Below, one piece after another: positions 7,372-14,863 of a DNA stretch of 64,000 bases (positions within the stretch are counted from its first letter, which is position 1; every line of letters begins with the position of its first letter). Made by a program: the position numbers and the translations under genes. Origin of the DNA: Priestia megaterium NBRC 15308 = ATCC 14581 (lineage in GTDB: Bacteria; Bacillota; Bacilli; Bacillales; Bacillaceae_H); NCBI RefSeq assembly GCF_000832985.1, contig NZ_CP009920.1, forward strand, positions 5,140,501 through 5,204,500. Direction: 5' to 3'. Under the pieces are notes generated by a model. It saw nothing but the letters and a program-made list of their open reading frames with translations, ran no database searches and had not been told where the DNA came from.

Positions 7372-8196
7372 TTATACATACCCTTTCATCTTGTCCTTTT
7401 TTAACATGCTCAATATCACTTCAGCGGTTTCTTCAACTGCTTTACCTGAGACATTAACAATAGGACAGCCAATGCGCTTCATAATTTTCTCAGCATAGTC
7501 CAGCTCTTCAAGGATTCGATCTACATTGGCATAATTGGCTTGAGACGCTAAACCTAAATTTTTTAATCGTTCTTTTCGGATTTCATTGAGCTTATCCGGT
7601 GTAATAACTAAACCAATACATTTATTTTTCGGAATAGTAAAAAGTTCATCAGGAGGCGTCACTTCTGGAACTAACGGTATATTCGCTACTTTAAGACTTT
7701 TATGAGCTAAATACATAGAAAGTGGCGTCTTAGATGTTCTCGAAACACCAATCAACACTAGATCAGCTCGCTTGATGCCTCTGAAGTCTTGTCCATCATC
7801 ATATTTAACAGCAAATTCAACTGCTTCTACTCTTCGGAAATAGTTATCGTCTAATTTTCTCGTTAATCTCGGTTGGAGATTAGGTTCTTTATTAAAGGTT
7901 TGGCTAAAGGCACTCATGAGTGGGGTCATTAAATCAATGGCTACAATTCCTTCTTCTTGTGCCTTTTGGTCAAGATACTGTTTTAAAGGTGGGATGACGA
8001 TAGTATACGCAATGATGGCCTCGTTACACCTTGCTTCAGCAATGATATTATCAATATTTCCCTCATCTTCTACGTAAGAAGTATTTTGAATTTCAATATC
8101 TTCTCCACTAAATTGAGTTAAAACTGCTTTTACCATCAGCTCAGCCGTTTCACCTACTGAGTCGGAAACTATATAGACAATTTTTCTTTTATTCAC
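7372..8196 (-). CDS. pyruvate, phosphate dikinase regulatory protein (DUF299)
   Basis: Bifunctional ADP-dependent Ser/Thr kinase and Pi-dependent phosphorylase that switches pyruvate phosphate dikinase (or PEP synthase) off and on. The N-terminal VSDSVGETAE motif and the P-loop-like GVSRTSKT (G150-T157) are hallmark features; 274 residues is the usual length (Bacillus YqfL). The start is GTG with AGGAAG upstream. The target dikinase gene is not in this window. Neighbouring Mqo also feeds oxaloacetate/pyruvate metabolism, so the placement makes functional sense, but this is inference. Confidence 0.9.
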   Translation of the reverse strand: MNKRKIVYIVSDSVGETAELMVKAVLTQFSGEDIEIQNTSYVEDEGNIDNIIAEARCNEAIIAYTIVIPPLKQYLDQKAQEEGIVAIDLMTPLMSAFSQTFNKEPNLQPRLTRKLDDNYFRRVEAVEFAVKYDDGQDFRGIKRADLVLIGVSRTSKTPLSMYLAHKSLKVANIPLVPEVTPPDELFTIPKNKCIGLVITPDKLNEIRKERLKNLGLASQANYANVDRILEELDYAEKIMKRIGCPIVNVSGKAVEETAEVILSMLKKDKMKGYV

Positions 8197-9654: not shown

Positions 9655-9967
9655 ATTTATTCCCCCTATTTGTAAAAAGAGTGTACTTGGCAAGTATAAA
9701 CTTTTCCATTTTCAAACTCAATGAATGTACTTTGCTTTTCTCTTTTATAAAACTACTATAATACTCTCCTTACATCTAAAATTGTACAAGCGCTATAAAG
9801 AAAGAATTTTATCTTTGCAATAAGCCTTTATATACTAATAGCCGGCTAGGCTAATTTGATATAAAACTGCATTCACAAAAACGAATTTTTCTTTTAGCCT
9901 TTAGAGTATCGTTCAAAAAAGATATAATAAGACTGTTACAGATTAAATACATACAGAGGAGGTCAAC
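9655..9967. other. intergenic region with divergent promoters
   Basis: About 310 bases, AT-rich. The rightward promoter of the Rep-like gene is recognisable at its right end (9900-9928). The leftward promoter of the phosphatase must lie in the left part but no clear boxes stand out. No iteron copy was seen here. Confidence 0.4.
9900..9928 (+). promoter_or_regulatory. sigma-A-like promoter of the Rep-like gene
   Basis: Perfect -10 TATAAT at 9923-9928 and a weak -35 TTTAGA at 9900-9905 with a 17-base spacer. A strong ribosome site AGAGGAGG (9955-9962) follows before the ATG at 9968. Confidence 0.55.
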
Positions 9968-11431
9968 ATGAACGAACCATCCAATTTTTCTCCTTACCTT
10001 ATTAAACAAATCAGCGATGCGATCGATGACAATATCAAAGCAAAGTGCATAGACTTTTTATATGATTCTCATTCGTTTTTTTCGAATGAAAAAGATTTTA
10101 TAGAAGACTACATTTTAAATATATTGCAAGATACGTTTGTTTTAGAGAATAAATTAATAAATCCTAAGGAAATAAGAAATCCCGCTTACAAAAGAAGGCA
10201 ATCGAATAAGAAAAACTGGCTGCAAACGTTAAAAAAAGATATTAAAGCAGAAAAGCCTAATCCTATTTTTGAAGACATTGAATTGGCCAAAAAAGTGATG
10301 GATAAAAAAGTGGATACCGAACACTTAAAAAAGCTGTTTGGCGTGGAAAAACCTGAAGATATTTTAAAGATAAAGTTAAAAGAAGTAGAGGCATGGGCTA
10401 AAAGTAAAAAAACAAACATTACTGATTTTCCTTATTTAGATTCAAAAATGAATTATCAAATAGAGAAAGCATTTCACACGGACTTTACTTTTTTAATTGC
10501 TGAAATCATACTAGAAAAATACAATGGGAATTTGAGTAACTGGATTGATAAACGATTAAATTCGTGGGTAGAGGCCCCTATCTTCTCAAATGAAAGTCAC
10601 TCTCTTAAAACCAATATGGAAGTTAAAACAAACTCCCAAGAAGTCGTTTTATATAATGACTATAAAGTTGATGAAGAATATTTCATTCGCACCATTATCC
10701 CTGTGAATGATAATCAAACGGTTCTTTCCAAACGAAATATGGTATTAGATCCAAAAGATTCTCAAATTATCCAGTTTGCTCTTTCACAGCGCGACGAGAT
10801 GTTTTATAAAGAAAAAACGGTGACTCTTGATTTAGCGGATATCGTTAAAGAAATTTATAATTCAAAAGGTGTAAAAAACTATGAAGCGGTTGAAGCCCGC
10901 ATTATGAAAATTGCCAGATACCATGTAGAAGGTGTAGCGAAGAAGAAAAATTCCAGAGATACAAAATTTGCAATAAACTTCTTCCAAAAAGCTGTTATTG
11001 AAACCGATGAAGTAACGGGCAGACGATATGCAACCATCGTATTTAGCGACGATACGCATCAAGGCTTTTTAAATCAGCAGTTTGTACAAATTTATAGTGA
11101 CGTTATTAAAAAGTTTAAAGATAACTCGCTGTCTTCTTTACTGCTGTATGCATTTCAAAAAGAGCGATTAGATTGTTATTTACAAGAGAAGTCTTACACC
11201 CATTTTTACCCGTATCAATATTTTGCTTCAAAAGTTCGTTTTCGTTCAAAGAAAATTGATGTCAATCTAAAATTAATTAATGAATCTCTAGCAGAGTTTG
11301 TTAGCAATCAAGTACTGATCCAAAGTTATCAGCAAAAACTTCAAGGATTTGAAATCTCTTTTATTCCTCTTCAAAATTATGAAATTCAAGACTATTTTGG
11401 AGGAGAACATAGAGAAACATTGGAAGGGTAA
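9968..11431 (+). CDS. putative plasmid-type replication initiator (Rep_3-like, two winged-helix domains)
   Basis: A 487-residue protein with no signal or membrane segment. The N-terminal 220 residues are charged and helical and were not recognised. From about residue 225 the layout resembles Rep_3/RepE-type initiators: a strand-rich start, then a winged-helix-like unit (about 260-315, ending in a basic recognition-type helix and a KKKNSR patch), beta strands (about 330-355), and a second unit opening with a long Tyr/Leu helix (about 365-400), like the region before the second winged helix of Rep proteins. The call is by architecture and context, not by a recognised signature. It is followed directly by a terminator and a 16-copy iteron array, the classic neighbour of such initiators. 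Strong ribosome site AGAGGAGG. Alternatives are an iteron-binding transcription factor or a decayed initiator. Confidence 0.5.
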   Translation: MNEPSNFSPYLIKQISDAIDDNIKAKCIDFLYDSHSFFSNEKDFIEDYILNILQDTFVLENKLINPKEIRNPAYKRRQSNKKNWLQTLKKDIKAEKPNPIFEDIELAKKVMDKKVDTEHLKKLFGVEKPEDILKIKLKEVEAWAKSKKTNITDFPYLDSKMNYQIEKAFHTDFTFLIAEIILEKYNGNLSNWIDKRLNSWVEAPIFSNESHSLKTNMEVKTNSQEVVLYNDYKVDEEYFIRTIIPVNDNQTVLSKRNMVLDPKDSQIIQFALSQRDEMFYKEKTVTLDLADIVKEIYNSKGVKNYEAVEARIMKIARYHVEGVAKKKNSRDTKFAINFFQKAVIETDEVTGRRYATIVFSDDTHQGFLNQQFVQIYSDVIKKFKDNSLSSLLLYAFQKERLDCYLQEKSYTHFYPYQYFASKVRFRSKKIDVNLKLINESLAEFVSNQVLIQSYQQKLQGFEISFIPLQNYEIQDYFGGEHRETLEG

Positions 11432-11450
11432 ATTGTTCCCTTCCTTTTTT
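11422..11450 (+). terminator. terminator of the Rep-like gene
   Basis: Seven-bp GC-rich stem GGAAGGG / CCCTTCC around the stop codon followed by six T. Confidence 0.85.
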
Positions 11451-11520
11451 ATTTGATATTTTTCCACTTTCAGCTTATAAATACAAAATATCCCTCTATT
11501 TTTATTTCATAGTTTGGAAG

Positions 11521-12290
11521 TTTTGTCATTTTTAACGTACTAACCAGAAGCTTTTGCTGTTTTTGACGTACCTGTTCGCTTCTTTTGCCGTTTTTAGCGT
11601 ACTAATTACTACCTTTTGCTGTTTTTGACGTACCACTCTGATTCTTTTGCCATTTTTGACGTACTACATTCATTTTATTTACTCGTAATCACTTATTAAT
11701 TGTTAATTATTCTCTTTTTTTCGTAAAACAATCCTACCTTTTGCCGTTTTTGACGTACTCCTTCACTACTTTTGCCGTTTTCTGCGTACTAAACATTGCT
11801 TTTCCCTTTGTTATTGCCTTTTCAAACCCCATTTTTTATTTTTTTCGCAGCATATATAAAGCTTTTGCCATTTTTGACGTACCAAACAAAAACTTTTGCT
11901 GTTTTTATCGTACTACTACGTCGTTTTTGACGCTTTTCACGTACTAAAAATAGCTTTTGCCATTTTTGACGTACTGATGAAATTCATTGTGTTATTTACA
12001 ACGATCAGAGAAGTGATTTTTTTACCTTTTTTTAGGTGAATCGAGATAACTTTTGCTGTTTTTAGCGTACTACTCTTCACTTTTGCTATTTTTGGCGTAC
12101 TATACTGAGCCTTTTGCCGTTTTTTACGTACTAAAACGCATAAAGTTTTTTTTGATTTTTACTGATCGTAACAAATACTGTTCTGCCGGCGCTTGCTTGC
12201 TTTTGCCGTTTTTGGCGTACTAAAAAACCTATACGCTTCACCCCTTGATATGACAGCATTCTTTGAACCTTTTGCCGTTTTTAGCGTACT
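11521..12290 (+). repeat. iteron array: 16 direct copies of a 21-bp repeat
   Basis: Each copy reads TTTTGC, then Y-R, then TTTTT, two variable bases, then CGTACT. All are in the same orientation. Starts: 11521, 11552, 11583, 11614, 11645, 11739, 11770, 11863, 11894, 11925, 11955, 12051, 12081, 12112, 12201 and 12270. Within runs the step is 30-31 bp, close to three DNA helical turns. The 93-96 bp gaps equal about three steps, and degraded copies sit in register inside them, for example at 11707-11727, 11987-12007 and 12020-12040. The unit is not a palindrome, has no CRISPR-like spacers and encodes nothing. Direct repeats beside an initiator-like gene are the known arrangement of iteron replicons. 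Confidence 0.9.
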
Positions 12291-12300
12291 ACTCGTTCGT

Positions 12301-12328
12301 TTGCGATTCTATTTCTTATTGATATAAT
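12301..12328 (+). promoter_or_regulatory. promoter abutting the last iteron
   Basis: -35 TTGCGA at 12301-12306 and perfect -10 TATAAT at 12323-12328, 16-base spacer. The last iteron ends at 12290, ten bases before the -35, so iteron-bound protein could control this promoter. The transcript enters the gene starting at 12401. Confidence 0.6.
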
Positions 12329-12400
12329 TTTCACAAGGTATTCTTTGTTATTTTACCCTAATAAATTATTGTTGATATGAAATAGATTGGAGGGATTCTC

Positions 12401-13423
12401 ATGATAAAAAAAGAATTTGCGAAAATTGGAAAACAAATTATTCGCCAATTGTCTAGCACCGTAGAAAAATATAAAGATATTGAAGATCACATGGACCTAG
12501 ACGCTCATGGGAACCCTACAATCAAAACAGTGGCAGAACATCACCGTTTATCTAAATCTCAAATTTCACAATTAATTTTTTATCACTTCCTTCACGTTGA
12601 TGAAAGAGGTATTATTTGTGATGTTTCTGAAAAAGAGATTGCAGCCGCTTTGAACTGTACCGTTCGAACAGTTCGCAACAACAATGTAGTATTAGCAGAA
12701 ACAGAATTAATTTCCTATTCTCGCAGCGGCAAAGGAATCAATATTTGTATTGTTCCCTATCCTCAATATTTTGAAGAACACGGCTTTGGGTTTATGGAAT
12801 TAGAATATACTCGCTTTGAAGAACTTATTCTAATTGAAAATGTAAATGCCCTTCGCTTAGAGCTGCGCAAAGAATTGGTTTATGACAACGATACGATTAA
12901 GCGTCAGTTTAATCCTGCAGAAAACACTTCAAAAATTAGCTTTAATGATTATAAAATTTTTACGCCGAAATATACTCACTACAAAGGTATGATGCAAAAA
13001 ATAGCTGAAACACAGACAAGCGCATTTAAAACAGTTGTCCAAGGATCTACTATTTTCTTTGTTTTAAAAGACGGAGCTAAAAATGGCAAGATGTCAAAAC
13101 AAGAAAAGAAAGATCAATACGCTGCGGCGATTCGACGTACTATTGAAGAGACTTTTGTAAAATTATCTGGACACAGCACAGATTCTACCGGAATTATTAT
13201 GTCTTCATTCCAAAACGAAGACATCGCTGATTTGGTTCAGCTTTCTTTTGAATATGGTATTGAACGAGTAAAGTCTGCCCTTTATTCTCTGATTGAACAG
13301 GCCTTCTTCAGCCATGATGCTCAAGTCGTTGAAAATTACGGTGGAAAAATCCGTACGCTCATTCGAAAAGAGCTTTCAAAAAATCTTCAAGATCAAGTCC
13401 CTGCCGAACTTACAGCTTCATAA
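12401..13423 (+). CDS. putative winged-helix DNA-binding / replication-associated protein
   Basis: A 340-residue soluble protein not recognised as a named family. Residues about 45-115 form a winged-helix-like unit, including a helix-turn-helix segment near residues 75-105 (EKEIAAALNCTVRTVR). The middle is a strand/helix region of unknown fold. The C-terminal 70 residues (about 262-335) are helical with a YG-x-E-x-V-x-x-AL pattern and a later conserved-looking Tyr-Gly. This loosely recalls the DnaD/DnaB_2 domain of Gram-positive helicase-loading proteins. The similarity is a visual impression only. Ribosome site GGAGGG six bases before the ATG. It lies between the iteron array and a DnaA-box region, which supports a role in replication or its control. 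Confidence 0.5.
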   Translation: MIKKEFAKIGKQIIRQLSSTVEKYKDIEDHMDLDAHGNPTIKTVAEHHRLSKSQISQLIFYHFLHVDERGIICDVSEKEIAAALNCTVRTVRNNNVVLAETELISYSRSGKGINICIVPYPQYFEEHGFGFMELEYTRFEELILIENVNALRLELRKELVYDNDTIKRQFNPAENTSKISFNDYKIFTPKYTHYKGMMQKIAETQTSAFKTVVQGSTIFFVLKDGAKNGKMSKQEKKDQYAAAIRRTIEETFVKLSGHSTDSTGIIMSSFQNEDIADLVQLSFEYGIERVKSALYSLIEQAFFSHDAQVVENYGGKIRTLIRKELSKNLQDQVPAELTAS

Positions 13424-13448
13424 GGGGCTTCTTTGGCATGCCTTTTTT
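13422..13448 (+). terminator. probable terminator of the winged-helix gene
   Basis: A weak hairpin (AAGG/CCTT ends with internal GGC/GC pairing) overlapping the stop codon, followed by eight T. Confidence 0.4.
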
Positions 13449-13573
13449 TTATTTTCTCTCCCTTCTCTTCTCTTATTGATACAAATAGTGCAAACAAACA
13501 CCCCTTTTTGCAGCTATCCAATTCCATTATCCTATCTATATAAACGTAATGAGTTCAAATAAATGATATTTCT

Positions 13574-13582
13574 TGTGTATAA
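13574..13582 (-). promoter_or_regulatory. DnaA box
   Basis: TGTGTATAA on the plus strand is TTATACACA on the minus strand, a full match to the TTATNCACA consensus. Confidence 0.5.
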
Positions 13583-13615
13583 CTACGGAATATTGCTAAA
13601 AAAATACCTTCATAC

Positions 13616-13624
13616 TTATCCACA
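13616..13624 (+). promoter_or_regulatory. DnaA box
   Basis: Perfect TTATCCACA, the high-affinity DnaA box of E. coli and Bacillus. Confidence 0.65.
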
Positions 13625-13741
13625 AAAGAAAGAAAACATATTCAATGACTGTTATATCATCCTTTTTGTTGATAAAAACATCCCTTTTATTTTTTTATTA
13701 ACGATAATTTCCAGGTTATTTACTCTTTAACACGACTATTT

Positions 13742-13750
13742 TTATCCACA
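13742..13750 (+). promoter_or_regulatory. DnaA box
   Basis: Perfect TTATCCACA, followed by GTGGA so that TCCAC and GTGGA form a short odd-centred inverted repeat. Confidence 0.65.
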
Positions 13751-13867
13751 GTGGAAATAATTCATACTTTTAATAGCAATTTTCATACTATGAGTTTTAA
13801 AATCCGTCTATTGCAGAAGAAAAAACATAGTGAATAAAATAGTTTCCATATCTGTTGTTATAAAAAA

Positions 13868-13887
13868 CATCCTTTAGCTAAAGGATG
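13868..13887 (-). terminator. leftward terminator-like palindrome
   Basis: Perfect 20-base palindrome (CATCCTTTAG / CTAAAGGATG) with an A-run on its left, that is a T-run on the leftward strand. No leftward gene ends here, so it points to an unseen leftward transcript starting between it and 14266, or it is a structural element. Confidence 0.45.
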
Positions 13888-13907
13888 CTGTTCACAAAAA
13901 ATGTCTA

Positions 13908-13916
13908 TTTTCCACA
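13908..13916 (+). promoter_or_regulatory. weak DnaA box
   Basis: TTTTCCACA, one mismatch from TTATCCACA. Confidence 0.35.
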
Positions 13917-13947
13917 CAGTTATTTATTGAAAAGCAATTTCCTCTCT

Positions 13948-13990
13948 AACCCTTGATATCATTGGGTTTTCACAGGGTTTTTCTTTCTTT
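13948..13990 (+). terminator. weak rightward terminator-like hairpin
   Basis: Stem AACCCT (13948-13953) / AGGGTT (13974-13979) followed by a T-rich run interrupted by C. Confidence 0.3.
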
Positions 13991-14266
13991 AATATCTGTA
14001 TATAATGTTTGTTAATAAGATCTATACTAATCTCTGTTATAAGGTTTTATTTAATATTTGTATAAAGAAATGTTTTAAAGATATCTATACCTGAGGATTT
14101 TTTCTTTTTCTAAATTAAGGAGTTTTCATTACGTATACCTAATACAAATAAATTAAAATAAAACAATAATTCAAACGCCTCTTCATAAATTCTAGTAGTA
14201 TATTTTTAAAAATAAATTATACTATTCAGTAGAGAAAATTTTATAAAGCAAGAAAGGGACTTAGTC

Positions 14267-14863
14267 ATGAAAGACATACAGTGGGTACAGAAAACTTTAT
14301 TTAATACCGGTAAGTGGATTGACATTAGTGAAGTAATTATAAAGATTATCTTGATTTTCATTATTGCTCAAATCGTTATCAGGTTTGCTCGCAGTGTAAT
14401 TAATAAAATCTTTGATTTCAGATTTAAAACTAAACTGCTGAGGTACAATGAACGTAAAGAAATAACGCTGAAAAAGCTTTGTCTGAGCATTGTCATGTAC
14501 GTAGTGTATTTTATTGTACTTATTACGTCTTTAGAGGCAATCGGAATTAATATGAAAGCACTCTTAGCTGGTATTAGCGTAGCAGGATTTATTACAGGCT
14601 TAGGTGCACAAAATTTGATTAAAGATATTTTAAACGGTTTTTTTATTCTATTTGAAGATCAATTCTCAGTAGGAGATCACGTATCCATAAATGATACGAA
14701 AGGAACTGTTGAAGAAATTGGATTGCGTACGACAAAAATTCGCGGAGTGGATGGAGAGTTTTACTTTTTTGCTAATAGTAACATTACAAAAGTAGCGAAC
14801 TATACGCTCGGTGAAATTCCCGAAGTACATAAGCCTGAACAAATAAAAACTCGTGAAGAATAG
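14267..14863 (+). CDS. MscS family mechanosensitive channel, short form
   Basis: Membrane channel of the small-conductance mechanosensitive family that releases solutes on osmotic downshock. Three hydrophobic segments lie at about residues 22-42, 68-90 and 92-125. The last is the Gly/Ala-rich pore helix (AGISVAGFITGLGAQN) leading into the conserved LFEDQFSVGDHV beta-domain start. At 198 residues it is shorter than usual Bacillus members (about 270-280) because the C-terminal alpha/beta domain is mostly missing. There is no frameshift sign and the ORF runs to a clean stop and terminator. AAAGGGA ribosome site. It sits directly to the right of the origin-like region. Confidence 0.85.
   Translation: MKDIQWVQKTLFNTGKWIDISEVIIKIILIFIIAQIVIRFARSVINKIFDFRFKTKLLRYNERKEITLKKLCLSIVMYVVYFIVLITSLEAIGINMKALLAGISVAGFITGLGAQNLIKDILNGFFILFEDQFSVGDHVSINDTKGTVEEIGLRTTKIRGVDGEFYFFANSNITKVANYTLGEIPEVHKPEQIKTREE

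Follow-up and report, generated by a model that had tools for sequence, protein, structure and literature searches.

Introduction

Iteron plasmids are among the closest described systems to the element reported here, a replication cassette in a 64,000-nucleotide stretch of the Priestia megaterium NBRC 15308 = ATCC 14581 genome (GCF_000832985.1, contig NZ_CP009920.1, positions 5,140,501 to 5,204,500 of the forward strand). This whole stretch is called the window, and its own coordinates are used below. Iteron initiators bind repeats, open an adenine- and thymine-rich (AT-rich) element together with DnaA and load the helicase, and they are restrained by titration and handcuffing. In Rep_3 plasmids (PF01051/PF21205), of which F/RepE is an example, the initiator has two successive winged helices. 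A bacterial chromosome is usually taken to have a single working origin. The fused dicentric chromosomes of Agrobacterium tumefaciens are said to carry two origins on one fused chromosome.

Plasmid-type origins on main chromosomes have been described. The single-chromosome Vibrio cholerae strains NSCV1 and NSCV2 carry ori2/RctB on the main chromosome. One strain uses it and the other keeps it silent; the silent ori2 of NSCV2 is described as a functional origin (PMC6284228). Integrated plasmid-derived oriN/RepN can drive the Bacillus subtilis chromosome independently of DnaA, with the participation of DnaD, DnaB, and DnaC (PMC4207641). A 2015 opinion paper lists putative double origins predicted computationally and says that there was at that time no evidence of two in use on one chromosome (PMC4403523).

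The Priestia cassette shares iterons, DnaA boxes and an AT-rich region with Rep_3 plasmids, and the element order predicted for residues 262–465 of its initiator-like protein would fit two winged helices. It differs from them in an initiator of 487 amino acids (aa) with an extra N-terminal helical region, and in a second gene between the array and the putative origin. The V. cholerae strains likewise have a plasmid-type origin on the main chromosome, but as chromosome fusions in single strains, whereas the Priestia elements are compact cassettes common to several species genomes (PMC6284228). The oriN/RepN system is also a plasmid-derived origin in a Bacillus chromosome; it is engineered and DnaA-independent, whereas the Priestia locus is natural and has conserved DnaA boxes (PMC4207641). 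An unnamed Rep cassette of large Bacillota plasmids has a homologous Rep, a one-strand array and, in part, the same type of second gene and downstream DnaA boxes. In contrast to it, the Priestia cassette lies in a chromosome, exists as two unrelated copies and has no recognized partition gene adjoining it. The A. tumefaciens case is reportedly a whole-replicon fusion (repABC), whereas the Priestia elements are short cassettes. We consider it probable that the chromosome of the P. megaterium group has captured and domesticated an entire iteron-type replicon belonging to a family of large plasmids, and that this cassette is now conditional or mostly silent.

Results and Discussion

Anatomy of the Cassette

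A preliminary description of the window, made without database searches, had proposed that the chromosomal DNA here contains a plasmid-type replicon or a domesticated origin. Its two genes and their layout were recovered as open reading frames (ORFs), and the locus has the following features.

9968..11431, + strand: Rep-like initiator gene P0001, 487 aa, an ORF; unnamed family of large Bacillota plasmids
11521..12290, + strand: iteron array on one strand only, ~16 copies of TTTTGCYRTTTTTNNCGTAC, many of them 30–31 bp apart
12301..12328, + strand: possible promoter of the second gene, TTGCGA-16-TATAAT with TG before the −10, by consensus match alone
12401..13423, + strand: second gene P0002, 340 aa, helix-turn-helix-like, an ORF
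13424..14266, no strand: gene-free AT-rich region, 843 bp, guanine-plus-cytosine (GC) content 26%, probable origin proper
13574..13582, − strand: DnaA box TTATACACA, kept in 5/5 genomes
13616..13624, + strand: perfect DnaA box TTATCCACA, kept in 5/5 genomes
13667..13675, − strand: weak DnaA box TTATCAACA, not kept in the 4 other genomes
13742..13750, + strand: perfect DnaA box TTATCCACA, kept in 5/5 genomes
13908..13916, + strand: DnaA box TTTTCCACA, kept in 5/5 genomes

The array is directional. In the intergenic region of 969 bp, the most frequent 14-mer (≤2 mismatches) occurred 15 times on the plus strand, never on the minus strand, and at most 5 times in 20 first-order Markov shuffles. Searched with the TTTTGCYRTTTTTNNCGTAC pattern at ≤1 mismatch, the array held 13 exact and 2 one-mismatch copies, all on the plus strand. 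A 16th, degenerate copy at ~11925 is a recognizable iteron in genomes G001 and G007, so the earlier count of 16 is fair. Scattered iterons had been named as a result that would speak against an origin. In the 5.75-Mb genome scanned, a single one-mismatch copy was found outside the array, on another contig, and a control pattern gave 0. The promoter proposed at the array edge is present and matches the consensus at 10/12 positions, but promoter-like matches in the region were no commoner than chance (16 found vs 20.7 expected).

The gene-free region contains five DnaA boxes at ≤1 mismatch, two of them perfect, against 0.23 expected. These two are the only perfect DnaA boxes in the whole window. 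The two perfect and two further boxes of the preliminary description were all present, and the fifth (13667) is an addition that is not conserved. A 10-pair stem with one G-T pair and a 4-base loop lies at 13866–13889, just before the box at 13908; it is terminator-like on the minus strand.

Conservation and Selection

Reading frames were free of stops in 5/5 carrier genomes. Across the 10 pairs of these five genomes, the ratio of nonsynonymous to synonymous substitution rates (dN/dS) was 0.000–0.026 for P0001 and 0.061–0.163 for P0002. Neighboring genes lay above P0001, at 0.056–0.161 (HAD gene, 10 pairs) and 0.053–0.134 (mscS, the 6/10 pairs without gaps). At a second copy of the cassette, locus 2, described below, the values were 0.000–0.050 for the Rep gene and 0.079–0.182 for the second gene. 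Selection extends to the noncoding parts. Among the five genomes, 37/320 columns varied in iteron cores and 100/449 in spacers (Fisher p 1e-4), and 3/45 varied in DnaA boxes and 174/798 in the rest of the AT-rich region (p 0.007); 4/5 of the boxes were identical in all five. P0001 and the cassette are under purifying selection.

These data bear on whether the locus could be an inert relic left by plasmid integration. As a relic would allow, neither a partition gene nor any other plasmid gene was recognized among the ORFs listed around the locus (7–18 kb), four of whose proteins were profile-scanned. However, the stop-free frames, the very low dN/dS and the conserved iteron cores and DnaA boxes show that initiator, iterons and DnaA sites have all been maintained; the cassette is therefore not a relic, and we regard that explanation as hardly credible.

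P0001 Belongs to a Rep-like Family without a Curated Model

The preliminary description had considered a Rep_3, RepM or DnaD assignment, which the profile searches did not bear out. No Pfam or NCBIfam replication model matched P0001 (Pfam at E ≤ 1), nor did one fire on 12 family members (Pfam at E ≤ 0.1). The Rep_3 models PF01051 (WH1) and PF21205 (WH2) matched 0/12 members at E ≤ 0.1; as a positive control, the same library found both in a Rep_3 protein of Pontibacillus. Aligned with four Rep_3 proteins by hhalign, P0001 gave E values of 0.18 and 0.11 with a probability of 0.3–0.5%, which is nonsignificant, although the alignment was colinear over the region of residues 262–465. RepM membership was rejected for lack of a Pfam or NCBIfam model match, and RepA_N or DnaD-type membership for lack of a Pfam match to P0001 (E ≤ 1) or to the 12 members (E ≤ 0.1). 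A search of PDB sequences at E ≤ 10 returned no relative. One PHROG of unknown function, phrog_13763, matched P0001 weakly (E 0.0002) and also matched 8/12 family members. The plasmid pBMB165 was ruled out as a characterized member, since its description places it in the pAMbeta1 family. Our literature searches found no experimental description of a P0001-type Rep family. By sequence, P0001 is thus a Rep-like protein of a family without a curated replication model and not a Rep_3 member.

An AlphaFold2 model of P0001 built from 10 sequences had a mean predicted local distance difference test (pLDDT) score of 72 and a predicted template modeling (pTM) score of 0.44. It consists of a helical N-terminal region, a low-confidence stretch (187–260) and two alpha/beta segments, H-H-E-H-H-E-E-E-E at about 262–359 and H-H-E-H-H-E-E at about 361–465. 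Most residues of 187–260, and residues 321–336, have pLDDT below 50. At this pTM of 0.44, the element order of 262–465 would fit two successive winged helices like those of Rep_3 initiators, a direction in which the colinear, though nonsignificant, hhalign alignment also points.

P0002 matched PHROG 13905 (unknown function, E 5e-13). It also gave a weak match to a replication-protein PHROG, a weak match to a DnaD-like PHROG (E 0.0064) and weak helix-turn-helix matches in profile scans.

Relatives on Large Bacillota Plasmids

Translated searches (tblastn) of 72,556 plasmid records found P0001 relatives on 34, with 25 covering at least 80% of the query. The best was 39% identical (Brevibacillus). 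The hosts belong to the Bacillota and include Exiguobacterium, Paenibacillus, Clostridioides, Priestia, Alkalihalophilus, Virgibacillus, Pontibacillus, and Lachnospira, and the plasmids range from 69 kb to 1.44 Mb in the 30 records listed of the 34. P0002 relatives occur on nine plasmid records, eight of which are among those 30. Distant relatives of the two genes also occur in C. difficile phages; scans of viral contigs, including one with a Rep_3 yardstick, returned no relative.

Array architecture was compared at 12 loci: the window, the second chromosomal locus, nine plasmids and one phage, with the unannotated locus of pFDU301A (L051) left out. At 12/12 a repeat lay beside rep on one strand only, with no minus-strand copies and more copies than in any of 20 shuffles. 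Two loci exceeded the shuffle maximum by a slim margin, with 5 copies against 4 in E. eligens and 6 against 4 in the C. difficile phage. The repeat sequence itself differs from locus to locus. In Aneurinibacillus the array lies between the two genes, which diverge. DnaA boxes followed the second gene in most plasmids (2–5 in 7/9, a single box in P. koreensis and none in E. eligens), and the Paenibacillus loci of H1-7 and RC67 have three boxes in the array region and two downstream.

The E. eligens rep copy adjoins parAB. On the 68.7-kb Exiguobacterium mexicanum plasmid the rep gene is ~5 kb from parA, and no other gene is named as a replication initiator in its incomplete gene table. Close to the P0001 relative on the Pontibacillus plasmid there is a Rep_3 gene too, so not every plasmid need rely on the P0001-type Rep. 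From this anatomy we infer that the P0001 cassette is the replicon of these Bacillota plasmids. The P. megaterium megaplasmid pFDU301A (1.08 Mb) has a divergent version of this Rep type, 28.8% identical. After it, at L051:9799–10284, a long repeat array that is almost perfect shows up as a minus-strand frame encoding near-identical repeated peptides.

Chromosomal Position and a Second Cassette

The replicon proposed in the preliminary description matches in Rep and array what is found on Bacillota plasmids, and it is chromosomal here: the window sits on a 5.34-Mb contig that also carries dnaA and the best dif match. The dif pattern was that of B. subtilis. Its best match, with 2 mismatches, falls where GC skew changes sign in carrier genome G009, and weaker 3-mismatch matches exist in G000 and G007. 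In the three best assembled carriers, the locus of the window (locus 1) is 0.38–0.49 Mb from dif, in keeping with the suggestion of a site near the terminus and far from oriC.

Locus 2 lies at L046:11834–15311 (G000:C6, about 4.07 Mb). It has a Rep relative 29% identical to P0001, its own array and a P0002-like gene, and is 0.54–0.60 Mb from dif on the opposite side in the same three genomes. Both loci were found in 5/10 genus genomes. In a maximum-likelihood tree of 24 proteins, locus 2 and P. koreensis sequences clustered together (support 99/96 for the three); one of the latter is carried by a 198-kb plasmid. Locus 1 fell in another part of the tree (nearest branch 86/85). The two were therefore separate acquisitions and not a recent duplication. 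The locus 2 iteron, TCCGTGCAAATATG, is almost that of the P. koreensis plasmid, CTCCGTGCAAAAGT. Since the span within 0.6 Mb of dif is 22–23% of the chromosome, two placements near dif are not strong evidence of terminus clustering. Both cassettes are transcribed toward oriC in G009, although two cases prove nothing.

A search with the flanking genes in nine non-carrier relatives gave mostly paralogue-level best matches, so no insertion boundary could be defined at an empty site. The mechanosensitive-channel gene (mscS) after the cassette, at 14267–14863, encodes just 198 aa, and its best matches in all nine relatives are open frames of 292–322 aa with 45–50% identity; judged by length and identity, it is a short, divergent paralogue. 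The PPDK-regulator-like gene at 7372–8196 likewise seems to be a second paralogue that has diverged, being 53–54% identical to the best copy in 8/9 of these relatives and 72% identical to one of two copies in G012.

Distribution and Repeated Capture

Protein searches found P0001 relatives in 7/16 family genomes and 14/397 order genomes. In the nine matching order genomes outside the genus, the match is on contigs of 91–603 kb, which suggests, short of proof, plasmids in the draft genomes. A profile search matched 28/398 class genomes, 21 of them in one family, on contigs of 8–237 kb. Other chromosomal members are in Paenibacillus sp. H1-7 and RC67 and in G531, which consists of one 6.45-Mb contig; in G152 the match, on a contig of 3.98 Mb, is short and weak. 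The dif pattern had no match in H1-7, RC67, or G531. Repeat arrays are weaker in these chromosomal members; in that of G531 the commonest 14-mer has 5 copies against ≤3 in 10 shuffles. H1-7/RC67 and G531 form two further tree lineages besides locus 1 and locus 2. With four separate lineages, chromosomal capture seems to have occurred at least four times, and we infer the direction to be from plasmid to chromosome. At Paenibacillus loci L186–L189 and L192, closely related Rep cassettes have different neighbor genes in each genome, as if the short cassette moves or its surroundings reshuffle.

Does the Cassette Fire?

A regularly used bidirectional origin is expected to leave a skew inversion. 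Skew was examined in G009 over contiguous stretches of 1.65–2.05, 2.2–3.0, and 1.25–1.65 Mb plus 40 arm samples; a gene-level fit at four-fold sites, which separates transcription from replication effects, dropped 3/40 arm samples for overlap with the added stretch. In the contiguous stretches GC skew changes sign at dif alone. Neither locus shows an inversion or a switch in the orientation of the majority of genes. Neither cassette is therefore a regular replichore-setting origin.

An active second origin firing in most cell cycles could draw on the conservation of all origin parts and on steps at both loci in the skew of all third codon positions (GC3) of co-directional genes. This skew was 0.090 on the oriC side vs 0.177 on the dif side at locus 1, and 0.096 vs 0.180 at locus 2, the kind of drop toward oriC that an origin in part-time use would produce. 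In the gene-level fit, however, the step at locus 1 was not significant (0.080 ± 0.019 on the dif side vs 0.055 ± 0.014 on the oriC side). At locus 2 it stayed (0.154 ± 0.016 vs 0.060 ± 0.018), but beside a lower-GC stretch at 1.65–1.77 Mb. Four-fold AT skew went from 0.018 to 0.072 in a step at locus 2 but showed none at locus 1 (0.082 vs 0.074). With the sign change confined to dif, we judge regular firing distinctly improbable. The lower-GC stretch itself (G009:C1, L085–L090) has weak strand bias, lies on the oriC side of locus 2 and confounds the skew tests; it is perhaps acquired DNA.

Conservation of Rep and iterons while skew shows no regular origin use would also be expected if the system had been reused, as a DNA-binding regulator, a terminus organizer or a plasmid-exclusion device that blocks incoming plasmids of the same type. 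Also in favor of reuse are the near identity of the locus 2 iteron to that of the P. koreensis plasmid and the divergent version of this Rep on the P. megaterium megaplasmid pFDU301A. Locus 2 has also lost, or never had, DnaA boxes. On the other side, the DnaA boxes of locus 1 are conserved, with no obvious need for them in either regulation or exclusion, and the iterons are confined to the locus apart from the one-mismatch match, so no regulon is seen. We consider reuse unlikely.

Several observations weigh against a captured, conditional or mostly silent replicon as well, and the restriction of the skew sign change to dif is one. P0001 has no sequence match to any characterized initiator in Pfam, NCBIfam, or PDB sequences, and its comparison with the four Rep_3 proteins was nonsignificant. 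P0002 is not kept family-wide: the protein after the array is only 15–17% identical in Brevibacillus, P. polymyxa, and Alkalihalophilus, too divergent to call a P0002 homologue, so the second gene looks exchangeable. Tandem Repeats Finder reported nothing in 4/11 arrays because their spacing is irregular. At the five chromosomal Paenibacillus loci the commonest 14-mer has just 3–6 copies, counted without a shuffle control. Downstream of the second gene at locus 2 there are 0 DnaA boxes and the sequence is not conserved; the capabilities of the two copies may therefore differ.

A captured and domesticated replicon is nevertheless the reading we favor. By its anatomy, the cassette should work like an iteron origin. 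P0001 would bind the iterons and limit its own expression, and together with DnaA at the conserved boxes it would open the AT-rich region downstream of the P0002 gene, while P0002 may help load the helicase or act as a regulator. We propose that the locus is mostly silent because forks from oriC normally duplicate it first, with iteron titration and handcuffing holding it in check. If replication of the terminus half falls behind, the cassette could then serve as a conditional origin. The oriN/RepN system in B. subtilis (PMC4207641) and the silent but functional ori2 of V. cholerae NSCV2 (PMC6284228) speak for the feasibility of such an arrangement.

Conclusions

Possible, if still doubtful, is a wider reading in which the P. 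megaterium group chromosome is naturally multi-origin. It would combine oriC with selected, conditional, plasmid-derived origins, each with its own initiator, that flank the terminus and rescue or finish replication of the terminus half. The conserved chromosomal pair makes it directly testable, in a harmless, tractable, industrial species group, whether a bacterium can maintain spare origins that work. A Rep-like Bacillota family on which no Pfam or NCBIfam replication model fires is also useful for plasmid typing and vector building. If the multi-origin reading is true, the solution would be a recurrent one, given similar captures in Paenibacillus and in a further lineage of the class.

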